Of a DNA stretch of 64,000 nucleotides, positions 1,762 through 62,300 are shown piece by piece (position 1 is the first letter of the stretch; each line of letters begins with the position of its first letter). The translations under genes were made by a program, and so were the position numbers. Under the pieces are notes generated by a model. That model had not been told where the DNA came from. It saw only the letters and a program-made list of their open reading frames with translations, and made no database searches. Origin of the DNA: Mytilus galloprovincialis (taxonomy: Eukaryota > Mollusca > Bivalvia > Mytilida > Mytilidae); the NCBI RefSeq assembly GCF_965363235.1, contig NC_134845.1:26042524-26106523 (forward strand). Reading direction: 5' to 3'.

Positions 1762-4700
1762 CTATTTTTTAATAATATTATTAATGTTTGACCATTTTTC
1801 TTTTATTCTTTTTGCTTTACTGGTAGAGCACAAACTCATAGAGACCATGTCAACCCTATAATAATAGTTAAGCCATTCAATTGCTTCAGCAACAGATGGG
1901 ACTGTAAATCTAACTCTACATAAGTAAACATATCTCTTCAATATCAGAATACATGTATTTAGAATATCTTTAAATATGTGATAATTAACACCCAAGATTA
2001 TACTTGATAAGGTTGGGAGAAAGCTTACATTACATACATCTTCTAACTTTTGAAAAAAATTAAGCCAGAATGTTCGAACGTATCTACATTCAAAAAAGAG
2101 GTGTATGTATGTTTCTTTAGTTTCTGTACAAAAAGTGCACAGTTCTGTTTCACTATATTTACACTTCATAAGTAAAATATTTGTTCCTAGAATTCTATGG
2201 AGTAATCTGTATTGAAATGCCCTTAATGTGGGATCTTCAGTTATAAGTAAAGGAAGACTAAAAAAATAATTCCATTCTTCGGCCACAATATCTATTCCCA
2301 ATTTTATTTTCCATTTCTCTTGTATGCGTGATGGGGTTTCCTTTATTTTCTCTAGAAAAAATTTATACAAATGTTTTGATACTTTATCAACTGTTTTTAT
2401 GGCGGTAACAATTTTGTGACTGACAGTATTTAGTTTGATAAATACTTGTGAATGAATTATATTCTTCCATTCCTTTGGAAGAGCCAAGATTAGTCCATAG
2501 AACTCTAAGAAAGTTGTTTTTATATTATGATTTCTAATAAATTCATCATAATTGTAAAATTCTCCATTTTCCTTAATGAGATCATTTATGAAAAATACAT
2601 TATTCTGTATCCACCTTTTATAAAAAACTGTTTTTCCATCAATCATAATATTTTCATTTAAAAACAATGGTTGAGACAAGATATCACTTGGGGCTGTGGT
2701 CAGAGGTTCACACAGTGAGGCATATGATGAAATTACATTTTGCCAAAAAGGGTTAAATTCTTTTTTAATTTCATTGAGTGCTGATTTTGATAGATGCCAC
2801 ATATTTTCTCCACCATTCATTTCAAGGTGATCTGCCAATAGAACTTTCCATGAGGAATAATTTGTGGGGTCTAAAACTTTTTTAACCCAGGATAACTTAA
2901 GTGATTTTATAAATGATTCAATATGTGGCATTTTTACCCCACCATCCTCGTAATTTGAGATAAGTATATTTCTTTTAATTTTGTCCCCTTTACCATCCCA
3001 CACAAATCTGTATAGCATAGCTTGTAACTGCTTTAATATATCTGGGGATGGATCTGGTAAAACAGTAAAACATTGAATTAGAATTGGTAGGGCGAGAGTT
3101 TTCACAACTACAATTTTCCCATATATAGTAATATTTCTGAATGACCAATCACTTAAAAGATTTTTTACTTTTTGAATTTTTTCTAAATAATTATCAACAC
3201 ATATATCAACTTTTGACAAACAATATTGAATGCCTAGGAGTTTGAAATTTCCTGAATGGTTCCATATTATTGTTTTATTTGTGTTTAGCTCCTCACCACA
3301 GCCCCTTTTTGCCCCAATCCATATAACTTGGGTTTTTTCAAAATTAGCCTTCAAACCAGAGCATGAGTAAAACAAGTCTATCTTATTTAGAGCACTGTTG
3401 AGAGATTCTTCACTATCATCCAGGATCAAAGTCGAATCATCAGCATACTGACTGAGTAAAAATTCAGAATTTTTAATCTTTATACCATTGATGTTGTTGT
3501 CATATTTTATAGATGCACTAAGCAGTTCCAAACATAAAATAAAAAGATAGGGAGACAGCGGATCCCCTTGTCGTACCCCCCTCTCTATTACAAAAAAATC
3601 AGATAGATAGCCATTATTTTGAATGCAACTTTTTGAGTTGTAGTAAAGAGTTGTGAACCATTTCACTATTGTGTCACCAAAACCTAGAAATTTCAAGGTT
3701 TCGCATATAAAGTTCCACTCAAGAGAGTCGAAAGCTTTTTCAAAGTCCAACAAAACAAGCAAGCCAGGAATATCTTCCTCATCTACTTTTTTCAAGAGGT
3801 CATATATAAGTCTTGTACACTCACCAATATATCTGCCTTTCATAAAGCCAGTTTGAGTTTCACTAATCAGGTGATCTAGGACTTTTTTAATTCTATTTGC
3901 AATACATGTTGATACTATTTTATAGTCTACATTAAGTAGTGAGATAGGTCGCCAATTTTTTAGAAAATGTTTTGGTTTACCATCTTTGGGTAGACAGGTA
4001 ATAACACCTTGTGTTTGTGAAATTGATAATTTACCTCCTTGAAATGCTTCTTTGAAAGAACGCAGTAGGAAAGGATTAATGTCGTGCCAAAAAATTTTAT
4101 AAAACTCAGTTGTAAAACCATCCAGACCGGGAGATTTTCCATTTTTCATATTTTTTAATGCATTATGAATTTCTGAGCTTTTTAGTTCCCCCTCTAAATT
4201 AATATTTTGTTCATCAGAGAGAATTTTGATAAATGGGTTTTCCAGAGAAAAGAAATTAGCTCTGTGTGTATTATTTATAATTGTTTTCTTAGATGAATAT
4301 AGATTTTCATAATATAACTTTTGTTCCGCACGAATTTTTGCTTGATCAGTGATAGTTTCACCATTATCTAGAGTTAATTTTTGAATTACTTTTTCAATAT
4401 AATTTCTTTTCTCTAGATTACAGAAATATTTTGTACTTCTCTCTCCTTCAATTTGCCATTTTGCTTTTGCTCTCATTATTGCCCCTTTTATTCTAGATTC
4501 TCTTAAAGACCTTAACTGAAGTTCAATACGTGTAATTTCTTCCCTTTTATCATTGATATTTTCATTATTGTTCAAATTGTTCAATTGACTTTCTAGTTCT
4601 TCTTCTTCCCTACTGCGTTCTTTCTTTTTAAAAGATGAATAAGATATTGTTTTTCCTCGTATCATCAGTTTTAATGTTTCCCAAAACAGTTGGTCTGAAA

Positions 4701-5565
4701 TGGAAAATTCTATTTCTTCCCTATTTTCAGAATCAACTATTTTATATTGATCAATACAATCAGCAATACAAGTTTTAGTATTAGCAATAAATTCTTTGTC
4801 GTATAATAAAGCATTGTTAAATTTCCACGTCCCTTTGCCTTTTTCATTTGTATTAAATTGAATGGACAGAGATACAGGTGAGTGATCAGACCTATATGCA
4901 ACACCAATATCACACGAGGTTATCAGTGGTTGAAAATCAGATGAGACAAGGAAGTAGTCCAGTCTTGCCTGCTTCTTGTTAGGTCCTCTCCAGGAAAACC
5001 TCTTTTTCTCTGGGTATAATTCCCTATAAACATCAACCAAATCTATTTCTGACATCATTTCATTAACCTTTTTTTGGGCTTTAGGATTATTTTTGTGCAA
5101 ATAGTTTAAAGTATCCATATCATAATTTTGTGGTAAATTCCAATCACCCCCCACTATTACTGAAGTATTACCAAAATTTTCAATATCTCTTTGGAGTATT
5201 TCATAAAAAACAGGTTTGTCCTCGTTGGGTCCATATACTACTGCTATTGTCATTCTATGATTGAAAATTTTTATATCTAGAATTGCATAGTTCCCGTCTT
5301 GATCCACTTTCTGTCCAAAGATTTCAAAAGAAAAAGTGCTTCTAAATAAGATAGCCACGCCCCTACTGCTCGTGGTATGCGACCCAAATATTATTTTATA
5401 CCCCCATTCTGCTTGCCAATACTTTTCAAGTTCTTTTTTACAGTGAGTATCTACCAAGAAAACCATATCATAGTTTTCTCTACATTTACTAAATATATCT
5501 CTTCTTTTAATTTTATCAGAAGACAGGCCTCTACAATTTATGCAACCAATTTTCAAACTACCCAT
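1762..5565 (-). CDS. LINE ORF2: AP endonuclease-reverse transcriptase
   Basis: A 1267-residue open frame. Residues 1-240 form an apurinic/apyrimidinic-type endonuclease (CINCRGL at the start, VGGDWNLPQN near 140, DHSPVSL near 225) that nicks target DNA. A charged linker follows (about 300-420). The reverse transcriptase spans roughly 480-780, with SPGLDGFTTEFYK, NWRPISLLNVDYKI, LLVLLDFEKAFDSLEW, GVRQGDPLSPYLF and the catalytic box QYADDSTLIL. The C-terminus (about 1150-1200) carries a Cys-rich knuckle, C-x2-C-x6-7-H-x4-C, typical of L1 ORF2 proteins. The length is normal for the group. The ATG gives MGSLKIGCINCRG, a usual ORF2 start. The product would prime reverse transcription at the nicked target. 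No stops or shifts are seen. Confidence 0.95.
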   Translation of the reverse strand: MGSLKIGCINCRGLSSDKIKRRDIFSKCRENYDMVFLVDTHCKKELEKYWQAEWGYKIIFGSHTTSSRGVAILFRSTFSFEIFGQKVDQDGNYAILDIKIFNHRMTIAVVYGPNEDKPVFYEILQRDIENFGNTSVIVGGDWNLPQNYDMDTLNYLHKNNPKAQKKVNEMMSEIDLVDVYRELYPEKKRFSWRGPNKKQARLDYFLVSSDFQPLITSCDIGVAYRSDHSPVSLSIQFNTNEKGKGTWKFNNALLYDKEFIANTKTCIADCIDQYKIVDSENREEIEFSISDQLFWETLKLMIRGKTISYSSFKKKERSREEEELESQLNNLNNNENINDKREEITRIELQLRSLRESRIKGAIMRAKAKWQIEGERSTKYFCNLEKRNYIEKVIQKLTLDNGETITDQAKIRAEQKLYYENLYSSKKTIINNTHRANFFSLENPFIKILSDEQNINLEGELKSSEIHNALKNMKNGKSPGLDGFTTEFYKIFWHDINPFLLRSFKEAFQGGKLSISQTQGVITCLPKDGKPKHFLKNWRPISLLNVDYKIVSTCIANRIKKVLDHLISETQTGFMKGRYIGECTRLIYDLLKKVDEEDIPGLLVLLDFEKAFDSLEWNFICETLKFLGFGDTIVKWFTTLYYNSKSCIQNNGYLSDFFVIERGVRQGDPLSPYLFILCLELLSASIKYDNNINGIKIKNSEFLLSQYADDSTLILDDSEESLNSALNKIDLFYSCSGLKANFEKTQVIWIGAKRGCGEELNTNKTIIWNHSGNFKLLGIQYCLSKVDICVDNYLEKIQKVKNLLSDWSFRNITIYGKIVVVKTLALPILIQCFTVLPDPSPDILKQLQAMLYRFVWDGKGDKIKRNILISNYEDGGVKMPHIESFIKSLKLSWVKKVLDPTNYSSWKVLLADHLEMNGGENMWHLSKSALNEIKKEFNPFWQNVISSYASLCEPLTTAPSDILSQPLFLNENIMIDGKTVFYKRWIQNNVFFINDLIKENGEFYNYDEFIRNHNIKTTFLEFYGLILALPKEWKNIIHSQVFIKLNTVSHKIVTAIKTVDKVSKHLYKFFLEKIKETPSRIQEKWKIKLGIDIVAEEWNYFFSLPLLITEDPTLRAFQYRLLHRILGTNILLMKCKYSETELCTFCTETKETYIHLFFECRYVRTFWLNFFQKLEDVCNVSFLPTLSSIILGVNYHIFKDILNTCILILKRYVYLCRVRFTVPSVAEAIEWLNYYYRVDMVSMSLCSTSKAKRIKEKWSNINNIIKK

Positions 5566-6692
5566 ATTTTATATCACTTACAATTGTAACGGATGAATGA
5601 TCTAAAATTATACAGTCAATAAACATATTCAGAGCAATACAAAAAAATGAAGTACAAATAAATAGAGAGAAATGAAAGTGACATAAAAATGCTTTTTTCC
5701 AACCATTTAAACAATAACTACCAAAAAGCTCCCGTTTCATGGTATTGCAGCAAATACAATTTAAATCAAATAAATTAAGTAACTAAGATACAGTGGGTTT
5801 CCTTCTTCCCCAGCCATTTATGTAAACAAAATATAGTGTTGTCTAAATCTTTATTATTATTATTATTTTTTTTTTTTGGCTCTTTTCTTCATGCCTCTAA
5901 AAGAACAGTTTTTTAACCTTAAATATGGTGTAAAATCTATTTCCCAGTTAATTTTAATAGTGTTTGATTAAGGTTCGGAAGTTTGAATGAAGTATTTGTT
6001 ATTTTTGACAGGGGTGCCCCCTTTTTTTGTGGAAAGCAGATAACTATTTGTTTGTAACTTGTCTCTCAGGTAGACATGTTTTTTTTAAAGATACTAGGGT
6101 TTTATAAATATTCTTTAGTGACATGTTACTTATATGTAGGGCTCTTTGAAATAGAGAAAAAGTGCAACATGTGGTGATATGTATCTTGACATGTGGATTT
6201 TATGATCTACCGCCGGTGACCACGCTTAAAACTTATAAAACTATTTTCACCAATAGGACAAGTTCAAACATGTTACGTAACTGGATTACCTTTTGCCTAA
6301 TTACTCTCAAAAGGCACATATTGTGTATTTATTTAGTTTAGAGTAGGCAATATTACTGTAATGAATCTATTAGTGTTTATGTCTGATTAGCTTGCACGAG
6401 TCAAAACATCCGGTTTTGTTTGCGCATGTCTACCTGGGATACCTAATATGCAAATTAGCCATGTGCAGATTGACCGGGACACTCAATTAACAACATAGAA
6501 AAAAAACCCGAATTTAGAGAGAGTTTCAAAATACACAATGGCAAAAAAACATCAAAAAACAAAGTTATAACATACAATAATACTAAAAAGATATACTATG
6601 AGTGTTCAAATGAGTTTTTGTTACAATTCTTGGTTTAATTCAGTTAAAAGTTGTCATTGGTTTTTTTTTCACGAGTAGGTAAGCTAAAAAGT
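5566..6692 (-). other. LINE inter-ORF spacer
   Basis: A stretch of 1.13 kb lies between ORF1 and ORF2 of the LINE, with T-rich tracts (5865-5879) and no open frame over 60 codons that resembles a LINE protein. It is long for an L1-type element. It could hold an internal promoter or entry signal for ORF2, or be a decayed part of a longer ORF1. Neither can be decided from this copy alone. Confidence 0.6.
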
Positions 6693-25689: not shown

Positions 25690-27890
25690 AACTTAGTCTA
25701 GACTTGGTTATCATGGAATTCACGAATGGAGTCGATCTCGTTTCGTGTGAAGCAGGTCCGTTTTTGTCTGACCACTGCGCCATAAAAGTGACAACGAGGG
25801 TACAAAAAAGAGAACATTGTCAATAAATCCATTTCATTTCGAAACTTCAAAAATATGAACAAACAAAATTTCACAGAAGATCTCCAAAAATTGTCACTAG
25901 ATTCCGATAACGTTGAAACCTTTGTTGGCGAATTTGAGAACACTATCGAATCTTTACTTAATACTCATGCACCAATGCAGGAAGAGCCACAAATATGTAG
26001 AGCACCCAAGCCCTGGTTTAACGAAACGATCATGTCTTTGCAACGACTCATGCGGAAATCGGAAAGACTCTGACGTATACACCGAAAACCGTGTGATTAC
26101 GAAATTTATAAATCATCCATGAACAAATACCACCATGAACTTAGAAATGAGAAACATTCCATTCTTACACATGTAGTCAAAAAATACTTTCTTTTTAAGG
26201 TGATTCTAAAAAGCTATATAAATTCGTAAAAGACTTAACAGGCAGTAAGTCGGAAAATCCGATGCTAGCCGTTGAAAACGAAAACGAACTTTCCGATAAA
26301 TTTGCAGACTTCTTCATGAACAAAAAAAAAACAATTCGTGATTCTCTGAAAGACTTTGACGATTACAAACCATTTTTCAAAGACGTTCCATTATTTACAT
26401 CATTTAAAAATCTTTCAGAAGACGAAGTTAAGACCATCATAAATAAATTGCAATGTAAATTATGTGAACTTGACATTTTGCCTACGAAAGTACTTAAATC
26501 GTTCCTTATTGAATTGTTGCCTTTATCACAAAGTAAGTTAACTTGTCTCTTAGTCAAGGCGTCTTCCCATTAAGATGGAAGCAAGCGGTAGTTAGGCCTC
26601 TGCTGCAAAAGGCTGGTCTTGAACTAATTTACTCAAATTATAGACCAGTAAGCAACTTGTCTTTCCTGTCTAAATTAATTGAAAACTGTTCGCTATATAG
26701 ACTGAATGAACACATGAAAGATCATGATCTCCTTCCTACAAGCCAATCTGAGTATCGTCAATTCCATTCGTGCGAATCGGCCCTTCTACGACTCGATAGT
26801 GACATACTCGATGGGATAGAGCATCAAGAAGTCACCGCTATGATCGCCGTTGATTTAAGTGCATCATTCGATACTGTAGATCATAGTATTTTGATAAAAT
26901 TACTCGAATATCAGTACGGTGTAAATGGAACCGCAGTTAAATGGATCGATTCCTATTTAAGACCTCGAAGCTGTCGTGTAAATGTCAGCTCTACAACATC
27001 ATCAGAGCGACAACTTGAGTGTAGCGTACCACAGGGAAGTTGCTTAGGTCCCTGGCTTTATTTAGTCTACGCCGGAACTCTATTCGACATTATTCCACCA
27101 TCTATTACTGTGTACGGATTTGCAGACGACCATACTGCTAATAAACGTTTCGTGCCAACATTAACGAATGAGATGGATGCAATTCGTTACTTACAGGACT
27201 GCGCTGTTCGTATAAACACCTGGATGAACAGTAACAAACTAAAAATGAACAATGCGGAAACAGAGTTTTTTCTTTTTGGCAGTCGACACCAACTCTCTAA
27301 ATTTCAGACAAAAGAAATAATCATTTGTGGAGATGTTATAAAATCAAAAACATGTATACGGTACTTAGGAGCTTTTCTGGATGAGACTCTAAACTTCAAA
27401 GAAGCAACTGAAACTTTGGTCTTATCTTTGGTTATATCACATTTAGATTATTGCAATGTTATACTTTTTGGAATTTTACAAACTGATTTATATAAATTGC
27501 AACGTATACAGAATATGTTTGCCAAACTTGTGTTAAACCGTTCTAAGTATGATAGTGCCAAGCAGGCATTGTTTAACTTACACTGGCTTCCGATCAAAGC
27601 CAGAATTACATTCAAAATCTTAACATATATGTACAACTGTCATGTAGGTAATGCACCGTCATATTTGATCAAGTTGTTAAATCCTCAAGTGTCGAAACGT
27701 TCATTAAGGTCGTCAGAGTCATCTATTGGTTGTTATGCAGTCCCATATAACAAAAAGAAAACTTTAGAAGCTTTAGTACTATTGGGCCAAAATTCTGGAA
27801 TGAACTAGGTACAAATGTAAGAAACCCTGAATCTTTGGATACTTTTAAATGTCGGTTGAAAACATGTGAATTTCAAAAATTATTTTGAAC
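25690..27890 (+). mobile_element. CR1/L2-type LINE, 5'-truncated and frameshifted
   Basis: Coding traces start with the end of an AP endonuclease (LSDHCAIKV near 25765) and run through the RT linker (25855-26073), the start of the RT (26262-26573) and the main RT frame (26543-27808). The pieces lie in three frames, so at least two shifts exist, and most of the endonuclease is absent. Style ([22 protein letters not shown] near the end) points to the CR1/L2/Jockey side of LINEs. No poly(A) or target duplication was recognised. It cannot move by itself. Confidence 0.85.
26543..27808 (+). CDS. CR1-like reverse transcriptase fragment
   Basis: A 421-residue open frame. It holds the RT fingers ([30 protein letters not shown]), the palm ([18 protein letters not shown]), the box [19 protein letters not shown], the catalytic YGFADDH near residue 190, and thumb/C-terminal parts ([24 protein letters not shown]). 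The F-A-D-D residues are present. Upstream RT residues sit in another frame (26262-26573, ending around 26540), so no full protein is made. It belongs to the decayed LINE and is not a host gene. Confidence 0.85.
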
Positions 27891-30653: not shown

Positions 30654-31517
30654 TCACTCCTCTGGCAAAGAATCACAGTCACTTTCATCATAACTCGGTA
30701 TGTGAGATGCATCTAAAACAGATGTTTTAAAGTCTCTCCTTGATCCAGACTGCTGTTCAAGTCTTTGATACCCCAGATACCATAGCACACTTGCAACATG
30801 TGCACAACAACCAACTACTCGTGCTCCCGATTTGCATGTACAATACCATCCTTCTATATCTCCTTCGTCACTGTAACTTGTGAAGACAGTATGGGAAAGT
30901 TTGTTACTATGCCTAGATTGTATTTTAATTTTGAGCAGGTTTGCTTTGATTTTGCACACATACAGTTCAAATTTTCCGTCTTCACCCTCATGTTCTCTGA
31001 CATAGTTAGGGGCCTGTTTAAGCTGATATACCCCCATGGTTATTTCTCGTAGTTTATCCATACTCAGAACTGGAAAATCAGCTAGTTCATCTAAAACATT
31101 TGATGCATCAACTAATTTGTAAATGGTACGTTTGGTCAATAAGCCTTCTTCCGTCACCATCTTTTGGATTGCATTTCCCTTTTTGCATTTTTCAAGCATT
31201 GCTTCGGCAATACTTTTATCCTCAGGGTGTGTACCAGCAAGTGGTGGCCGAAACTTGTTGCAAACAGCGCATACAATCCGTAATAAATCACCAATGATTG
31301 GAATGAAATGGTTAGAAACTACCTTGTCGAAGAACCTCCATTGTTTAACTCGTGCATTCACACTTTCAACGACCCATCTCACTTTTGTTACTAGTCTGCT
31401 GGCGTTGGCTTCTTCTACCGGGTGCTGTTTTGATCCCTTCTTCAGGTAAACGGGCATTTCTACGTTATACCCTTGTTCTCTTAAGAAGTCTACCACGTCT
31501 CTAAATCGACCACACAA
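30654..31517 (-). CDS. Transposase, C-terminal part with SWIM zinc finger
   Basis: A 287-codon frame continuing the protein of 31490-32740 after a frameshift near 31500. It starts with FRDVVDFLREQGYNVEMPVY and then RWVVESVNARVKQWRFF (about residue 50), the usual surroundings of the catalytic glutamate in IS5/Harbinger-type DDE transposases. The C-terminal part has a SWIM finger, C-T-C-x9-C-x-H (residues about 225-240), a zinc module that binds DNA or protein. The tail is acidic (ESDCDSLPEE). The first codon of this frame is TTG, so it is not an independent gene. Confidence 0.8.
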   Translation of the reverse strand: MCGRFRDVVDFLREQGYNVEMPVYLKKGSKQHPVEEANASRLVTKVRWVVESVNARVKQWRFFDKVVSNHFIPIIGDLLRIVCAVCNKFRPPLAGTHPEDKSIAEAMLEKCKKGNAIQKMVTEEGLLTKRTIYKLVDASNVLDELADFPVLSMDKLREITMGVYQLKQAPNYVREHEGEDGKFELYVCKIKANLLKIKIQSRHSNKLSHTVFTSYSDEGDIEGWYCTCKSGARVVGCCAHVASVLWYLGYQRLEQQSGSRRDFKTSVLDASHIPSYDESDCDSLPEE

Positions 31518-32740
31518 ACATCGCTAGTCTCTAGCCACTCATTCATGCCTTCGGCATTGACAGAAATCATGTGCTTTGTTATTGCCGCGTCATTATTTTT
31601 TCCGTTTGCAAAATAGGGACCCAGTACTGACAGGATATATCCATCTGTTCCTACTATGACCATTGGTTTAACTAGCGGTCTGTTTTTATGCAGGCTGTAT
31701 GATAACCTCTGAAATTCATAATCAGCGCTTTTCTGGAGGTAGATATAAGTACCGTCCATGACAATAATTGCAGCATCTTCAGAATCATTGGCAAACAGAG
31801 TTTTTGCTATTTGAGTGGTGTGGTTCCGAACAAAATCTTCGTGGCTTATATGCTGAAACCCAATGAAATGTGGTACAAAATCCTGCATAAGGGAAACTCT
31901 GGCACTATGAATACATCTTTGCACTTGGCTTTTGGTTAACGAAAATATTGTTCCAAGTATATGATTTGGAAGTCCTGTCCTTAGTTTTGTTAACAAGACA
32001 GCTATACATGTGCGTACAGACCTAACATTGGTTTGACGTGCTGATACAATATATGAGGAGAGTTCATTGAATTGCTGCTTTGATAATCCAGTTAGATTGT
32101 AATAGTCACCATCAGATAATGATAATGGATTGTCAAAATTCAGGATATGAGAGGTTGCCAAGGTTTTTCTCACATTTTCTAATAATGAAGTTATATCAGA
32201 ACGATTCATATATGTTGTAGTGTATTTTGCAGTTAATGCTTGAAGTGATGTGTCGTCGAAAAGTTGTTCAGATAAATGATGTTTGCAACAGCGTGTATTT
32301 CCATCTATAAAAACGGCATTTTTTATAAAGGCTTGGGTTCTTGCCTGTAAAGGAACTTTGCATAACTTATTTCTACTGGTACCTTCCTTCTTGCATACAA
32401 TGCAGAATCTATGTGATGTGTGAGTGGAAGAAATATTCAGTTCAATTTGTTTCGGACTTAATATTTTCGTGGATACGGCTTCTTCTGTATTTATAACAAA
32501 CTCAGAGTCACTGTCATCTGTAATACACTCGGAAAGACAGTTTGAAACTTTCTGTTCATTGTTTACTTTTTTTAGTGTTTTCCTGTATATTGATCTGCAC
32601 TTCTCACATATCACATCATTTTCTTCAAGGTTTCGCTCAATTCTTTTTCTTACAAACTGTTTCAGTGCTTTAGTTGTTATCTTACGTCTGGATTTTAGAT
32701 GACATCTACCACAAACCACACACTTGAACTCTTTAGCCAT
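31490..32740 (-). CDS. DDE transposase (IS5/Harbinger-like), N-terminal part
   Basis: A 416-residue frame from an ATG 9 bp inside a TTTTTCCAG splice acceptor. N-terminal Cys pairs (CVVCGRC, CEKC) and a second C/H cluster near residues 110-160 (CIVCKKEG...CCKHHL) look like DNA-binding zinc modules. A helix-turn-helix follows (about 215-285: LTGLSKQQFNELSSYIV, then CIAVLLTKLRTGLPNHILG). The DDE core starts with IIVMDGTYIYL (first Asp, about 325) and GPYFANGKNNDAAI (second Asp). The frame ends in VCVVDLETW where the usual D-R-G-F-R-D continues in the other frame, so about two codons are lost by a small deletion near 31500. The protein is therefore broken. Confidence 0.85.
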   Translation of the reverse strand: MAKEFKCVVCGRCHLKSRRKITTKALKQFVRKRIERNLEENDVICEKCRSIYRKTLKKVNNEQKVSNCLSECITDDSDSEFVINTEEAVSTKILSPKQIELNISSTHTSHRFCIVCKKEGTSRNKLCKVPLQARTQAFIKNAVFIDGNTRCCKHHLSEQLFDDTSLQALTAKYTTTYMNRSDITSLLENVRKTLATSHILNFDNPLSLSDGDYYNLTGLSKQQFNELSSYIVSARQTNVRSVRTCIAVLLTKLRTGLPNHILGTIFSLTKSQVQRCIHSARVSLMQDFVPHFIGFQHISHEDFVRNHTTQIAKTLFANDSEDAAIIVMDGTYIYLQKSADYEFQRLSYSLHKNRPLVKPMVIVGTDGYILSVLGPYFANGKNNDAAITKHMISVNAEGMNEWLETSDVCVVDLETW

Positions 32741-33169
32741 CAGTCACCTGGAAAAATGTAAACAAATATTATTGATTAATGTAAAAAAAAAATAAAAAAT
32801 ATCAGCACGTAAGATAAGATCAATTTTATTTCCTATAGAGGACCCATAATGGGCATAATCAGTACAGTGATATTCATATTAAAAAAATACAATATAGATA
32901 ATACAAACAAAAAAAAGCCATAACGTGAAATATGCATGAGTTAATAATATATGTAGTCATATAACCCGTAATGTTTAGTGTTTCTTGACCATGCACCAGA
33001 AGCAGCATTACATTCTTTATAAAATAGCTTTTATTTATATTCTAGCACTTTTAATCACAACATGCATAAATAAAAATCAAAAAGGATTATTATAGTATCC
33101 TTCTCGAGGATAGTGCTCACGAACAAGATTGTTAAGCAGTTATCAAAATGCAGAAGTCACCTAGGGCAG
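32741..33169. other. 5' flank of the transposase, no gene seen
   Basis: Begins with a likely splice acceptor (TTTTTCCAG at about 32749-32757 on the minus strand), which suggests the transposase message has an upstream exon. The rest is AT-rich and shows nothing nameable. Confidence 0.45.
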
Positions 33170-41206: not shown

Positions 41207-44200
41207 TCATATTCCTGTAACAATAAACTCCACCTTGTTTCTCATTTTATGCATGAAGGTGAGAGGATTATGATCAGTATAAACAAGAATAGGATATACA
41301 GTGGGATTCAAATATACATCAAAATGTTGAAGTGCTGACAACATTGCAAAACACTCTTTTTCAATAGTTGAATAATTTTTCTGATGTTTATCTAATTTCT
41401 TAGAAAAATATGATATAGGTTTTTCAACATTATCATCTGTCTCTTGATATAAAACAGCTCCTATTCCTACATCGCTTGCATCAACGGCAAGTTTAAATTG
41501 TTTTTCAAAGTCTGGAGTAATCAGAACTGGACTATTAATTAAAAGTGATTTGCTATTTTCAAAAGCTTTTTGACAATTTTCACTCCAGATAAATTTAGAA
41601 TCTTTTCGTAAAAGATGAGTCAATGGTTGAACAACAGTAGCAAAATTTGAACAGAATTTCCTGTAAAATCCTATCATGCCTAAATATCTCATAAGTTGTT
41701 TTCTATTTGTAGGAGGTGGAAATTTGGAAATAGCTTCCACTTTAGCCATAATAGGTTTTACTTGACCTTGGCCAACTGTATGCCCTAAATAATCAACAGT
41801 GGCCTGACAAAATTCACTTTTACCAAGATTAACAGTCAAATTTGAATGTGACAATCTATCAAAAGTATCATACAAATGTGTTAAATGCTGTTCCCAGCTA
41901 TCACTACATACAATAAGATCATCAATATAAGCATAACAACAGTCTAAATCTTTTATAACATTATTGATCATTCTTTGAAATGTAGCTGGAGCACTTTTCA
42001 TGCCAAATGGCATTACAGTATATTGAAATAAGCCATCTGGTGTAACAAAAACTGATATTTCACGAGCTCTCTGTGTCAATGGAACTTGCCAATAACCTTT
42101 CAATAAATCAAATTTGCTCACAAATTTTGCTTGACCAATATTGTCAATACAATCGTCTATCCTTGGAATCGGATAGGAATCAGATTTTGAGACTGAATTT
42201 ACTTTTCTGAAATCAGTCACGAAACGAAAAGTTTTATCTGGTTTTGGCACAAGGAGACAAGGAGAGCTCCATTCACTGTTACTCGGCTCAATAATATCAT
42301 TGTCAAGCATATATTTAATTTCTTTTCTCATAACTTCAAGTTTGAGTGGATTGAGCCTGTAAGGATGTTGCTTAATTGGAGAAGCATCTCCTACATCAAC
42401 ATCATGACAAACAGCAGTGGTTTTGTTTGGCACATCTGGAAAAAGATTTTTAAAAGAAAATACCAAAGTTTTTATTTCTTCTCTACGATCAAAAGACAGA
42501 TGTGCAAGTTTTGAATCTAAATTTGACAAAATTTCTGAATTTTTCAATCTAACTGTCTCTTCCATAGTTTTACAACTAAAAGTTGGTTCAATTACATCTG
42601 GTTTGTCATGATTGTTCTCAAATTTAACCATGCCTAAAGTGGCAACTGGTTTACTATAACATAGTACATTAGTACGCTCAAAATATGGTTTTAACATATT
42701 AATATGACACACTCTATTTTGTTTGCGCCGACCTGGAGTTTTTACAATATAATTCAAATCATTAATTTTACTCTCTATTGTATAAGGACCACAATATTTA
42801 GCCTGTAAAGGATGTCCAGGGACAGGCAGAAATACAAGTACCTTATCACCAGGCTCAAAAACTCTGTCCCTGGCATCTTTATCATACCATATTTTCATCT
42901 TGTTCTGTACATTTTTTAAGTTTTTCTGAGCAATTTGACAAGCAGTATACAATTTTTCTTTAAATCTAGATACATAGTCTAAAAGATTCAAGTCAGTATG
43001 TTCAGTAAGCCACTTTTCCTTAATCAATTTTAACGGTCCCCTTACAGTATGGCCAAATACCAACTCAAAGGGACTAAATCCAAGGGATTCTTGAACAGCC
43101 TCTCGAACCGCAAAAAGTAGAAAGTGAACTCCATCATCCCAGTCTCTGTCAAATTGAAGACAAAAAGTTCTAATCATGTTCTTCAATGTTTGATGAAAAC
43201 GTTCTAAGGCACCTTGAGATTCTGGATGATAAGCACTTGATCTGTACTGAGCAATCCCTAACTGGTATACGACTTGCTGAAATAAACCTGACATGAAATT
43301 TGATCCCTGGTCGGACTGTATAGACTTAGGAAGTCCTACTAATGTGAAAAATTTGATCAAAGCTTTGACGATAGTAGGTGTCTTGATATTTCTGAGCGGA
43401 ATAGCTTCAGGAAAGCGGGTAGATGTACACATGATTGTCAATAAATATGCATTTCCAGTCTTGGTCTTTGGTAAAGGTCCAACACAGTCAATTAGAACTC
43501 TGCTGAAAGGTTCGTCAAAGGCTGGAATAGGCAGAAGTGGTGCTGGTGGTATTTTCTGGTTAGGTTTACCAACAACCTGGCATATATGACATGATTTGCA
43601 GTATTCTGCAACATCGTTTCTAAGTTTAGGCCAGTAAAAATGCTGCAAGATCTTAAGGCAAGTCTTCCTTATACCTAAGTGTCCAGCCAAGGGGGTGTCA
43701 TGGGCAAGACCAATAATTTCTTGTCTATAAACTTTAGGCACCACCACTTGGTATAGCACTCTCCATTCCTCCTCTGGGGTGGCATCAGGAGGCCTCCACT
43801 TCCTCATTAAAATACTGTCCTGATGGTAATAGCATTCGGCCACTTTGTCTGCTTCCTCCTGTGGTTGAGCCCTCTGGCTGAGCTGAAGAACCTCAGGGTC
43901 TTTATGTTGTTCTTCGAGTAAATTATTTCGGTCTAATGAATGGCTGTTCACATCTGGCCATGGCATAATAACATTTTTGTTAACACTAGGTGGTTTTATA
44001 ATAGCCTTTTCTGAGTTACCAGGATCTTCAATATCAGCTATAAAAGTGTCAGAAAGGTCCATGTAATCAAACTGGTCTTCTTGCAAATTCTCATCTTGTT
44101 GTTTTCTAGCCATCGCCCTAGTAACAACACAAGCTGGATACAATTCAGCATCATCTTCAGGTGATTTAACATCCACCACTGGTTCACTGGTAACAATTGG

Positions 44201-45862
44201 TTCAGCAACCACTTTGTTCCTAGCTAGATCATTTCCTAGCAATAATGTAACACCCTCTACAGGGAGATTAGGACGAACACCTACAATAACTGGTCCAGTT
44301 ATCAAATCTGACTTCAGATAAATACGATGGAGAGGAACATCTATACAACCCAACTCTACACCTTGTAACAAAACGGAGGCACCAACAGAAGTCTTCTCGG
44401 ACAAAGGCAACACACCTTCTAACAATAAAGACTGAGAAGCTCCAGTGTCCCGTAAAATCTTAATAGGCTGAAGAGTGGTATCATCAACAATAGAAATAAA
44501 CCCATCAGACATAAAGGGTTTATATTCCTCCATGTAATCACAAAAACTGGACTTAAAAGCCTGACTCGCAGGACATTCCAACGTACTGGTAATATAAGGT
44601 GTCGTACAAGCACTGGTCTTCGGCTTATTATCTCGTTCATTCTTCTTCTGGAGTCTAAAACAATCAGCCATCAGGTGACCAATCTTCTTACAATAAGCAC
44701 AAGTCAGTGACTTCTTCTCAAAAGTATCAAATTTTGGACTAGACATATTATAACTGGACTGACTCTTATTCTGTGGAACAGGCTTACTATCAGTACGCTC
44801 AGTGCTTTGATTTTTGTAATTTCCACTGGAAGTATTAACATTTTGACTCTTGAAACTTCTTTTATGTGAAAGAGTATAATTATCTGAAATTACAGCCGCA
44901 TCATGTATTGACTCAACAGTTTTGTCGTCTAAATGTGTTTTTAATTCTGAATGAACACATTGTTTAAACTCTTCTAATAACATCAATTGTCTTAGTTGAT
45001 CAAAATTGTTTTTTGTTTTCTTTGAAGTAAGCCATTTATCAAATAGATCTTCTTTTTCCCGAGCAAATTCCACATAGGTTTGCGAATCAAACTTTTTATA
45101 AAATCTAAATTTCTGTCTATATGCTTCTGGTACTAGCTCATAGGCTTTCAAAATTTCCTGTTTCACAGTGTCATAATCAGAACTTTTTTCTGATGGAAGT
45201 GCGGAATAAATTTCAGCGGCCTTACCCTCAAAAACACTTTGCAGCATCGTAGTCCAATACGGCATTGGCCATTTCAAATTATTAGCAATTTTCTCAAACT
45301 GTGGAAAATATTTATCAACTGTTTTTTCACAAAATTTCGGAACCAAACGTATATTTTTTGCTGCATCAAAATAATCTGATTTCGACTGGACTTTAGTGTT
45401 GCTTTCTTCTTTGACCATTTCAATTTTCAGTTTTTCCATCTCTAGCCTTTCTCTCATTTCAAGTTCTTTTAATTTAAATTCATCTTCTTTTTCTTTTTTC
45501 TCCATTTCTAACCTTTCCTTCATTTCCAGTTCTGCCTGTTTTAATTTAAATTCATCTTCTTTTCTTTTCTCCATCTCCTTCAAATTCATTTCCAGTTCTT
45601 TTAGTTTGAGTTCATGTTCTAATTCAAGCTGTTTTAATTTAAAGGCGTCAATATTTTCGACCTTAAGTTCAAGAGCCTCTTCACCTAAAATTTCTGCGTC
45701 AACTAATTTGTCTATAACCAAATTTTTTATAATTTGTTTTCTCATAGATACTTTAAAAACTAATTTCAGTTCTTTAGCAAGCAACACTAATTCCTCTTTC
45801 TTTAAATTATCAAAACTCTCCAGGTCTGGCGTTTTCAAAAATTTACCAGCATCAAATGCCAT
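41207..45862 (-). CDS. LTR element Gag-Pol polyprotein (fossil)
   Basis: One frame of 1551 residues. Gag: a charged coiled coil built from FKLKELEM-like repeats (about 70-150), a capsid-type region (about 165-330) and a zinc knuckle [14 protein letters not shown] near 387. Protease: [10 protein letters not shown] near 474. Integrase: an HHCC finger ([12 protein letters not shown]...CKSCHIC, about 725-765) and a D-D-E core (IDCVGP near 790, SDQGSNF near 852, [13 protein letters not shown] near 884). Reverse transcriptase: about 1120-1330, with YIDDLIV near 1312. RNase [14 protein letters not shown] near 1460. Integrase before reverse transcriptase defines the Gmr1-like group. Length and domain set are near the family norm. 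Confidence 0.9.
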
Positions 45863-45929
45863 TTTGTAGAATTTTGTTGGCTAGTTATAATACAAATACT
45901 AAACAAATTTTGAATAAAATATTTTTAAG

Positions 45930-47944: not shown

Positions 47945-49560
47945 AGGACCTTATTTGTCACGATTAAAAAATTGTACAAAAAGAGGGACGAAAGATACCA
48001 AAGGTGGAGTCAAACTCATAAATCCAAAACAAACTGACAATGCCATGGCTAAAAATGAAAAAGACAAACAGAAAAACAATAGTACACATGACACAACATA
48101 GAAAACTAAATAATAAACAACACGAACCCAACCAAAAACTAGGGGTGATCTCAGGTGCTCCGGAAGGGTAAGCAGATCCTGCTCCACATGTGGCACCCGT
48201 CGTGTTGCTTATGTGATTACAAATCCGGTAAATAGTCTTATTCGGTAGGTCACATTCATGAAAGGGAAGGGGGTTGTAGTTACGACGTAAGGAACATATC
48301 CGATATCATTTGTGAAACGGTTATTCCATAACGGTCAACCAACTCGTGATGGCGTCCGTAAAATTTACGAAGGGATGATTTCAACTTCACCATTTGGAAC
48401 TCTTGGTTTAATAGCTTCCTTGTGAGCAGCAACCCTCTATCAAGAAAATCATGATAGGAAATGCAAGCACGGGAATATCGTATTAATTGGGAGATATATA
48501 CCCCGTATGCAGGTGCTGCTGGAATGTTGCTACTTAGAAATGGAAAGTTCACAATTGGAAAGCTGAAATCATCTCTTTTGTCGTAAAGTTTTGTTTTCAA
48601 CCGACCCTCATTGTCAATTTCTAGATGTAAGTCAAGATATGAAGCCGACTTAACTGTATCTGTAGTATCCTTTATCTCCAATTCGATGGGATAGATGCGT
48701 TCCACATAGTCACCAAATTTTGAATTGTTTAGTGAAAGAACGTCATCTATATAGCGGAAAGTAGAGTTAAAGGATATTGCTAACTTCTTATCTTTCTTCC
48801 TAAGAATTTCCTGCATGAAGTCAGCCTCATAATAATAAAGAAACAAGTCGGCAAGTAGAGGGGCACAATTTGTTCCCATTGGGATGCCGACAGTCTGTTG
48901 AAAAACACGTCCTCCGAACGTTACAAATATGTTGTCAATCAAGAAATCAAGCATCTTGATAATATCGGTTTCAGAGAATTTTTTGTTTGAATCAGAGTGA
49001 TTCTTTACAAAGTATGATTTATCCCTCCCTAAGACAAGATACTTGTTTCTACGTTGGCCATTCTTTTTTATGAAGCAAAGTAATACCAACTCTTTCAATT
49101 TGTCTTTTAGTTTGGAATGTGGAATACTTGTGTACAGAGTAGAAAAGTCAAATGTTTTAATACTGTTACAAGATGAAAGAGAGTTAGATTGTATGTACTC
49201 TAAAAGATCTTTGGAATTTTTAGGTATCCACATCTGATTCACGCCACCTTTAGAATAGGCAGTTTCACAATACTTTGAAGCCCGTCTTTGATTGCTGATA
49301 AAATAGATGTTAATAATTTAGAAAGAGGTTTCGTGGAGCACTTGGAAGACCCAGCAATATACCGTTGTTTGTAAGGACACTTATGTAGTTTAGGTATCCA
49401 ATACAGTGATGGAAGATCCAGTTCTTCATCTTTGGTTGAAATACCAAAGGAACAAAGAACAGACCTATGATTATCCAGGATTTCCTCTTTGGTAAGTGTC
49501 GTGAGGGTATATGTTTCTAAGTGAATTGTCTATACCTAAAAAATTAGGACGTCATTTATT
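47945..49560 (-). mobile_element. Penelope-like element, 5'-truncated
   Basis: The RT frame at 48280-49242 continues upstream in a broken way to about 49540. Pieces such as SLYWIPKLHKCPYKQRYIAG and ASKYCETAYSKGGV are readable in different frames, so there is at least one shift near 49265-49300. Downstream lies a non-coding tail (47950-48270) shared with 1100-1330. No GIY-YIG endonuclease follows the RT. The N-terminal region beyond 49560 is missing. Confidence 0.85.
48280..49242 (-). CDS. Penelope-like reverse transcriptase
   Basis: A 320-codon open frame (the annotated first residue is a GTG; the natural protein starts further upstream). RT motifs: KTFDFSTLYTSIPHSKLKDK near 28, GIPMGTNCAPLLADLFLYYY near 118, catalytic FRYIDDVLSLNN near 165, then SYLDLHLEID and the C-terminal NIPAAPAYGVYISQLIR and HHELVDRYGITVSQMISDMF. 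Penelope RTs are related to telomerase RT. The frame closes with MFLTS and TAA, as in the copy at 1-1340 (MFLMS, TAA), so this is the natural end. Canonical Penelope elements carry a C-terminal GIY-YIG nuclease, which is absent here. Confidence 0.88.
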   Translation of the reverse strand: MNQMWIPKNSKDLLEYIQSNSLSSCNSIKTFDFSTLYTSIPHSKLKDKLKELVLLCFIKKNGQRRNKYLVLGRDKSYFVKNHSDSNKKFSETDIIKMLDFLIDNIFVTFGGRVFQQTVGIPMGTNCAPLLADLFLYYYEADFMQEILRKKDKKLAISFNSTFRYIDDVLSLNNSKFGDYVERIYPIELEIKDTTDTVKSASYLDLHLEIDNEGRLKTKLYDKRDDFSFPIVNFPFLSSNIPAAPAYGVYISQLIRYSRACISYHDFLDRGLLLTRKLLNQEFQMVKLKSSLRKFYGRHHELVDRYGITVSQMISDMFLTS

Positions 49561-54478: not shown

Positions 54479-55088
54479 CAATTAACAGTCTCCGGGACAC
54501 GTTTGCAATTCCGCTGAGTGCAAAAGTTGTCACCTTAATTTTTGGAGTTAAGTCAAAACGAAGTTGATAATTTGGTTGGTATTGGTTACCTGATATTTGT
54601 CCTTAAATGTTTTGGCTCTAGCACTACTGTTGAAAAAAGTTATGCCCCTTTTTCAACAATTTCCTCAGAGGAAAAGTAGTTTTCCTCACGGGAAATCAAA
54701 TTTCCCTAAAGGAAAAAGATTTTTCCTCAAAGGAAATTGTTTTTCCCTCAAGGGAAAAACATTTCCCATAGGGAATTTGCTGCATAAATATTTCCTTTGA
54801 GGAAATTCTATTTCCTTAGCGGATATTCTATTTCCCTTGAGGAAAAATCTTTTTCCTTTAGGGAAATATGATTTCCCTTGAGGAAAAATACTTTTCCTCT
54901 GAGGAAATTGTTGAAAAAGGGGCATAACTTTTTCAACAGTGGTGCTAGAGTCAACACATTTGAGGTCAAATATCAGGGAACCAATACCAACCAAGTTATC
55001 AACTTCATTTTGACTTAACTCCAAAAATTAAGGTGACAACTTTTGCACTCAGCGGAATTGCAAACTTTTCCCGGAAACTGTTAATTGT
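54479..55088. mobile_element. 610-bp near-perfect palindrome (foldback element)
   Basis: The left arm starts CAATTAACAGTCTCCGGGAC and the right arm ends with its near-exact inverse at 55069-55088. The arms then pair almost base for base for 300 bp: TTGCAATTCCGCTGAGTGCA, TTGTCACCTTAATTTTTGGA, GTTATGCCCCTTTTTCAACA. The centre is near 54783. High arm identity implies a young or gene-converted structure. Reading either strand gives similar peptides rich in F-P-Q/K-R/G-K-S because of the symmetry, so the overlapping frames are not genes. No transposase and no clear target duplication. Confidence 0.92.
54659..54908. repeat. Array of twelve small palindromes, TTTCCnnnnnGGAAA
   Basis: In the core of the large palindrome, units such as TTTCCTCAGAGGAAA, TTTCCCTAAAGGAAA and TTTTCCCTCAAGGGAAAA start near 54659, 54681, 54701, 54722, 54742, 54762, 54791, 54811, 54831, 54852, 54871 and 54892. 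The period is about 20 bp, two helical turns. Six units on the left mirror six on the right. Each unit pairs TTCC with GGAA at a spacing of 3-5 bases. Confidence 0.92.
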
Positions 55089-60500: not shown

Positions 60501-60567
60501 TAATCATATGACCGTTTGCAATTACAAACAAGGAAGGTGACTTTTAACATACTATTACATATCTTAC

Positions 60568-60795
60568 CTGTTGATTGAGCGACTGGTGTTGTCGTAGTTG
60601 GTGTTGTCATAGTTGTCGTTGTCATAGTCGTCGTTGTGATACCATTAGACCAGTACTCGATCTCAAACCCAGTATCACCTACCGTATTGTCTGTCTCAAA
60701 CAAGATGTACATCTCTCCGGTAGAGCTTTCTAAAGTTGCACTGTGTGTTCGTCCACAACATGATTTCATCAATTCTGGACTGCTGGAGTTTGCCC
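60568..60795 (-). CDS. Gene B CUB exon 3 (first CUB) with Thr-rich linker
   Basis: A 228-bp exon, phase 1 at both ends, ATCAG acceptor and ACAG|GTAAGA donor. ANSSSPELMKSCCGRTHSAT, LESSTGEMYILFETDNTVGD and TGFEIEYWSNG close a CUB domain. A linker of about 24 residues follows, mostly Thr with Met and Pro (TTTTMTTTTMTTPTTTTP), likely O-glycosylated and built from a GTYGTY-type microsatellite in the exon. The matching exons 1 and 2 were not found up to 64000, so the gene continues off the right edge. Confidence 0.87.
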
Positions 60796-62300
60796 CTGAT
60801 AAGATAATAACACTTTCCTTGCATTGTATATTTAAAACTTGTATAGATATAAACAAACTTCAATAACTAAAAGTAGTCCAGTTAACTGAGGCATTCTAAT
60901 ATATTTTTATACTGATTTTACTCTTATCTAAATACACTATTACCGTATTTCAAAGCACATAGCCTTTGTAAACGATCTAAACAGAGCTGGTAAGAAGTGC
61001 AAACATTTTCGGGAAAAGTATGAAAATTTTGATATAAGAAAAAACCTGTCCATGATTTGGAGTGTACCGCGTGGATAAACAGTTCTTGCATAACAAAAGT
61101 GGCACCAATAAATGAAAAGCAGCATTTTTAATGTCATAAACGATTTAATGAGGACAGGAATGGGGCTACGACATGAAGAACACAACCAATGCATGTCACA
61201 CATGTATCAGAGAGGTCAACCTTATCAAAATATTTAACGTATAGTAATATAAACTCATAAGAACACGTGCATGACACAAAAGACAAAAATGAAGAGACAA
61301 TTGTCTGATGTATGCAGAAATAATTACCAATAAGACATTCAGCAACTAACTCTAACCTCTGAATTAGTGTCTTGGAACAAGCATATTAAGGATGGTCACG
61401 TTTGAAAGCTTTATTACCTAGATATTTATACACTTTATCAGAGCGAGATTGAGGTTCTCTGGATTTTGACAAAAAGGCTTAACGTTTTCTAAGTCGTACA
61501 AATGGATATACATACATGCAACTATATCAAATATACTACGTGCTACTAATCTATAAAGCAACAGTAGTATACCGCTGTTCGAAATTCATAAATCGATAGA
61601 GAAACAACAAATCCTGCATATACATATATTATACACATATACACAACTATATACTTCACACAATATAATACCGAAAAGAAAAAACAACCCTCCAGTCCTA
61701 TTAATCCTATATATCTTATAAATAATTAAAAAGGGGGGACTTATTGAATAAATTAAAATTTACTAAGTATTTAGAAGAGGGCCGATCGCTTTGGCGCTGT
61801 CGTGCTGAATGACCGAAACCCCCGTTTCAGCGGGAAACTGACCACACGAAACGTACGACACCTATATACATCATGAAAAGACAAGAGAAAATAATTTCAC
61901 TCTAATTCACTACGTTCAACCGTATGAAATTATATATATCGTGTAAATGTCGTTGATCCAACTAAAATCTAATAAATGAACTGGACGATTAATGATATTT
62001 ACCATAACACACGAATACAACATAAAAAATAAGATTTACAACTACAAACGTTAAGACATGTGACTAAATACGATGACAATAACAAATATAACATCAAAAC
62101 TAAATAATGTTGTGATCAATACGGCCAATAGTGGGATGGAAAAGTTCTGTGACACGTCTTATAGTAATTCGAGTGAACACTAAGCAAAACAGTCACAATC
62201 GGGAATAAGTCACGTTCAGTAATAAAAAGATCAGACGACGTAATGATAAACCAGAATATAACACGTGGTAAAAATGTCCATAGTTAGTTTGGAAAAAGAT
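60796..62300 (-). other. Gene B upstream intron, no exon seen
   Basis: AT-rich; 61557-61620 holds the AGTAGTATACCGCTGTTC repeat core. I searched by eye for CUB exon 2 (…GICLF-D…YDG with a GATG|GT junction) and did not find it. Confidence 0.5.

Follow-up and report, generated by a model that had tools for sequence, protein, structure and literature searches.

Two foldback transposons of Drosophila resemble the element described here. Galileo, a foldback-like member of the P superfamily, has terminal inverted repeats (TIRs) whose repeats are said to hold extra transposase sites (PMC4079207, citing Marzo 2013), and Tetris, a foldback element of D. virilis, is non-coding and has TIRs made of a flanking domain and an internal repeat array, its autonomous partner likewise not having been found according to the same source. 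In bivalves, Academ elements have been amplified (PMC10294476), and PMC9587614 describes a different family. Here we analysed 64,000 nucleotides of Mytilus galloprovincialis DNA (assembly GCF_965363235.1, contig NC_134845.1, 26,042,524 to 26,106,523; this whole stretch is the window), in which a nested palindrome of 599 bp is real and is the remnant of a DNA transposon. Very probably, the object derives by internal deletion from a large TIR transposon that is moderately repeated and has 4-bp target duplications.

The window element and its parent family

The element occupies window positions 54484-55082 and is flanked on both sides by AATT. With one gap allowed, its arms form 252 paired bases with 15 mismatches (94%), and without gaps, stretches of 174 nt (90%) and 142 nt (87%) pair. 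As single-stranded DNA, and with DNA parameters, it folds into a single hairpin at -280.9 kcal/mol, whereas 20 shuffles averaged -64.7 +/- 5.7. Its core (54660-54907) holds twelve TTTCC/GGAAA palindromes at spacings of 19.5-21 bp with a single gap of 29 bp, and never more than one such palindrome appeared in 500 mononucleotide shuffles of the core. An initial annotation had described a nested palindrome with twelve mini-palindromes and near-perfect arms of 300 bp; pairing, fold energy and shuffles bear out the nesting, and the arms do pair closely but measure about 252 bp each. Its edges lay 5-6 bases too wide, chiefly because the duplication AATT is its own reverse complement, the extra pairing beyond the element consisting of this AATT and one more C-G pair. 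Scans of the window with Rfam (gathering scores) and for tRNAs gave no match.

In the 1.38-Gb genome, the left 322 bp of the element had 365 candidate places, 40 of which were scored, namely the window element itself and 39 others at 94-95% identity, many of them in inverted pairs. The terminal 16-mer, allowing one mismatch, had 248 matches versus 11 for the reversed control. Among the 100 matches listed, 64 form inward-facing pairs, and neighbours less than 70 kb apart were oriented '+-' in 32 cases, '++' in one, '--' in two and '-+' in none; the inward-facing pairs among the matches listed lie 3.2-65 kb apart (median 19 kb), and the long copies mostly measure about 16-22 kb. An identical 4-bp duplication flanks 17 of the 18 pairs with both flanks read, which were chosen for being pairs and are not a random sample, and a 5-bp duplication none of them, with 4-bp agreement in 7 of 306 cross-matched flank pairs as control. 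The duplicated bases vary (AATT, TATA, TTAT, AAAG, TACG and others), and the 3.2-kb copy L101 has AATA on both sides. In addition, 52 of 61 distinct flanks carry an A at the third base outward from the duplication (background 0.37, P 1.3e-14); this position was picked after viewing the table, and the count includes some flanks that lie left and right of a single insertion. Since the A is preferred in left (22/27) and right flanks (30/34) alike, the target is symmetric, A-N2-[4 bp]-N2-T, and the window insertion fits this preference at both sides. The check for genome copies with target duplications, which the initial annotation had proposed, thus came out positively, though by way of long parent copies.

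The window copy is the product of a single event, in which two ends were joined head to head within the arrays of palindromes that the TIRs carry. Stretches of 36 bases match forward TIRs best through start 54814 and reversed TIRs from 54826 on, both parent ends hold ATTTCC at 54830-54835, and a junction-spanning 29-mer, with up to three mismatches, has one match in the genome. From this switch, the shared ATTTCC and the single junction it follows that about 346 bp of one end were joined to about 253 bp of the other, and the array is asymmetric about its middle, with eight units from one end and four from the other. In a longer parent, the deletion probably arose when repair or template switching took place at the shared ATTTCC. 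A loss of the same kind as in the window copy is seen in L104 (7.5 kb), a long copy from which the middle is missing. The idea of a new foldback transposon family accordingly holds for a foldback-type mobile element and fails for the window object as a family of its own, and a family of many similar short copies, as in miniature inverted-repeat transposable elements (MITEs), is ruled out by the junction occurring once in the genome. We consider it quite improbable that the 599-bp form was nonetheless itself a self-copied, MITE-like mobile family: it does possess both ends and a target duplication, and its target site fits, but the single junction match argues against such copying, even if a strongly diverged sister could have escaped the search.

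Between the two outer arms of the window copy there are 11 differences in 175 bases and one gap (6% in the gapped count), and between those of three long copies 0-1 in 176, so the window copy is older than these long copies, contrary to the recent origin or gene conversion that had been suggested for its arms. Compared with the family majority over 261 columns, the arms show 8 private changes on the left, 7 private on the right, 7 shared and 2 three-way. Palindromes are hard to assemble, yet these differences and private changes, together with the matching AATT duplications and target context, make it extremely unlikely that one arm is the mis-joined inverse of another copy. A further proposal is that the hairpin, if transcribed, would yield double-stranded RNA against the TIRs and silence the family, as proposed for Mu killer in maize, an inverted duplication with two TIR copies (PMC3440606). 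The strong fold is compatible with this, as is the fact that, among the 40 places scored, only the window copy pairs its own outer arms within 1 kb; however, no host gene has been shown to cross the hairpin, a CUB-domain frame lying 5.4 kb off, and the private changes in both arms fit plain decay, so that we regard silencing as very improbable. The internally deleted transposon copy thus remains the preferred reading, and it shows a route to a nested palindrome: a large transposon collapses and its own ends are joined.

Long copies and their classification

The long copies are one element present in either orientation, with bodies that are mostly 97-99% alike on C1, C3, C5 and C6 and about 75-95% alike, by segment, in more distant copies. 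Over 720-770 bp of alignment, the TIRs of four copies are 88-91% alike, and each consists of an outer arm of about 176 bp followed by palindromic units, 18-20 of them in 34 of 43 ends (range 0-22). Spacings between units are 20-22 or 28-30 bp in 708 of 721 cases, which are not independent since the 43 ends are homologous, and the inner array has a rhythm of 50 bp (20+30 bp). For a two-unit pattern of the array, the genome gave 621 matches, and for the reversed control none; of the 99 array matches listed on C1 and C2, 17 have no listed exact end inside 1 kb and are spread over seven places, one of them being the array at C1:2.50 Mb.

The family has inward-facing terminal inverted repeats and a target duplication of fixed length (4 bp), the marks of class II TIR elements, and the duplication also agrees with the 3-4 bp of AcademX. 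Several assignments were rejected. Galileo and the P superfamily need a 7-8 bp duplication, and 5 or 6 bp were seen in 0 of 18 pairs; Kolobok, KolobokP and piggyBac need TTAA, found in 0 of 18, and KolobokP was also dropped on direct repeats. A Polinton or provirus reading, prompted by pairs 17-20 kb apart, is ruled out by the 4-bp duplication. Mavericks/Polintons have a 6-bp duplication and genes for DNA polymerase, integrase and capsid-type proteins, and no viral-type domains of these kinds were present in the 20 open reading frames (ORFs) scanned.

Two observations weigh against the transposon interpretation: no transposase was recovered in the Pfam scan, which took in 20 of the 64 ORFs measuring 55 aa or more (L069, L070, L072, L074) and whose single match was at chance level (E 0.09), and the pair at C2:104.9 Mb, one of the 18, is without the 4-bp duplication. 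Inspection by eye of the interiors of L098, L099, L100 and L102 and of the short copies L097, L101, L103 and L104 revealed no autonomous partner, only short ORFs and repeat or LINE-like frames (LINE, long interspersed nuclear element). A 260-aa frame in L070 and L100, which reached only E 0.09 in Pfam and to another family, resembles what we take to be a LINE tail. Copies lacking a transposase gene would be moved in trans by an autonomous partner, and these large elements, none of which has so far shown a transposase, pose the question of their mover.

Two side observations concern these copies. At C10:48.476-48.480 Mb, three left ends (L026, L027, L028) form a tandem series at intervals of about 1.1 kb and share one outside flank, which reflects either a local duplication or an assembly fault. 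In addition, a tandem repeat inside L098 (913-1581) and L103 (4540-5241) is open in frame over 223 and 233 aa, respectively.

Half-sites of the palindrome arrays

Among 40 of 43 ends (three with identity below 75% were left out), diversity in the putative half-sites was 0.013, compared with 0.022 in the outer arm, 0.059 in the spacers and 0.075 in the centres. When the labels were slid along, 7 of 435 shifts produced a contrast at least as large, and the contrast was present for each base type, only two array positions lying in CpG. Because exchange of units could mimic such uniformity, subfamilies were compared. In the A-A comparison of one C10 end with two sister copies, whose bodies differ by 15.6-16.5%, the half-sites differed at 0 of 180 and 1 of 190 bases, the centres at 11-12% and the spacers at 9%; the 0/180 contrasts with 11/101 in centres (P 9e-6) and 13/143 in spacers (P 2e-5). 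In the B-B comparisons (body 6%), half-site changes were 3/183 and 3/193 with L018 and 0/180 and 0/190 with L063, the contrast with centres giving P 9e-4 for L018 and 3e-5 for L063, and that with spacers P 0.04 for L063. These data show, in a small sample, that the predicted half-sites vary less than the centres and spacers between them.

Constraint on the half-sites is the new observation here: judging from these sequence comparisons, selection probably maintains them, and putative inverted sites for a dimer are the simplest reason for it. The suggestion that the TTCC/GGAA units are paired sites for a dimeric factor has thereby become the best reading of the array, and we lean towards the arrays being multiple putative dimer-binding sites for an end-pairing transposase, or for a host protein used by the transposase. 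Several findings weigh against selection on the half-sites. With L018 the contrast to spacers was not significant (3/183, P 0.11), and the contrast as a whole comes from few lineages, namely one C10 and one C2 copy versus two sister copies. The outer arm is little changed too (1.7-2.8%; 4/176; half-sites versus outer arm P 0.06), and low change is thus not particular to the half-sites. Finally, when two ends belong to the same copy, their half-sites differ at 4-5 of 180-191 bases, much like spacers.

A less probable explanation, though one we take seriously, is that the array is a satellite-like expansion within the TIR, with half-sites alike through unit copying and not through protein binding. 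It would account for the 50-bp rhythm, for half-sites that are unremarkable between two ends of one copy and not clearly otherwise with L018, and for a uniform look of shared half-sites, which unit exchange alone would give; yet unit exchange cannot stop divergence between lineages, where the A-A half-sites stayed nearly identical while centres, spacers and body diverged, and the base-matched comparison agrees with the half-site contrast. If the arrays are binding platforms, as we favour, the putative sites would lie on a lattice of about 10 bp of alternating half-sites, and from the likeness to Galileo we infer that the protein bound there may be the transposase. Here we speculate, and only tentatively since the scheme as a whole is unlikely, that an undescribed transposase might load as a chain of dimers on the ~10-bp TTTCC/GGAAA lattice, so that ends 17-20 kb apart could meet, and would insert the element at A-N2-[4 bp]-N2-T. 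A natural array with usually 18-20 palindromic sites per transposon end is also suited to weighing the cost and benefit of stacked binding sites.

Surroundings and comparison with known systems

Table 1. Parts of the nested palindrome and its flanks, in window positions.
Feature	Position	Strand	Basis
Left target-site duplication AATT	54480..54483	.	Directly outside the element end; preferred A 3 bp further out
Left TIR outer arm, ~176 bp, begins AACAGTCTCCGGGACA	54484..54659	+	92-96% identity to 39 other scored genome places; boundary from many ends
Left share of palindrome array, eight TTTCC/GGAAA units, reaching TIR position ~346	54660..54829	+	Best ungapped match is to forward TIRs
Fusion point, ATTTCC common to both parent ends	54830..54835	.	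Match flips from forward to reverse TIR; parents compared; unique junction 29-mer
Right share of palindrome array, TIR positions ~253-176 reversed, four units	54830..54907	-	Best match is to reversed TIRs
Right TIR outer arm, ends ACTGTT	54908..55082	-	93-96% identity to 39 other scored genome places
Right target-site duplication AATT	55083..55086	.	Directly outside the element end; preferred A also fits here

Elsewhere in the window, one open frame of 1557 aa (41207-45880, minus strand) looks by eye like a retroelement polyprotein in which integrase precedes reverse transcriptase, a Gmr1-like order, and a 1268-aa frame (1762-5568, minus) looks like a LINE with endonuclease and reverse transcriptase. 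Two overlapping frames at 30654-32743 (minus), one with DDE_Tnp_4 and a SWIM zinc finger and the other with HTH_Tnp_4 below the curated cut-off, probably belong to another DNA transposon. RVT_1 marks a reverse transcriptase frame at 26540-27808 (plus) and, below the curated cut-off, a frame at 48283-49317 (minus) that appears Penelope-like by eye. The CUB-domain frame, with a Thr-rich stretch (60503-60859, minus), is perhaps an exon of a host gene.

Among known systems, Mu killer resembles the window copy in having rearranged inverted TIR copies in one locus (PMC3440606), but it carries transposase gene sequence and silences its family, and nothing of the kind is known for the window copy. Academ, in its AcademX lineage, shares duplications of 3 or 4 bp (PMC10045372), whereas no Academ protein turned up in the mussel copies, although no Academ-specific search was made. 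Galileo differs in its 7-8 bp duplications and THAP transposase, where the mussel family has 4 bp and no transposase in the ORFs scanned, and one D. willistoni Galileo copy has direct repeats of about 140 bp in place of short palindromes. Tetris, whose layout of flanking domain and internal array is shared, is built of 220-bp direct repeats that have also spread as satellite arrays; the mussel family instead has palindromes of 15-16 bp, placed every 20 or 30 bp, and for 82 of the 99 array matches listed on C1 and C2 a listed transposon end is no more than 1 kb away.
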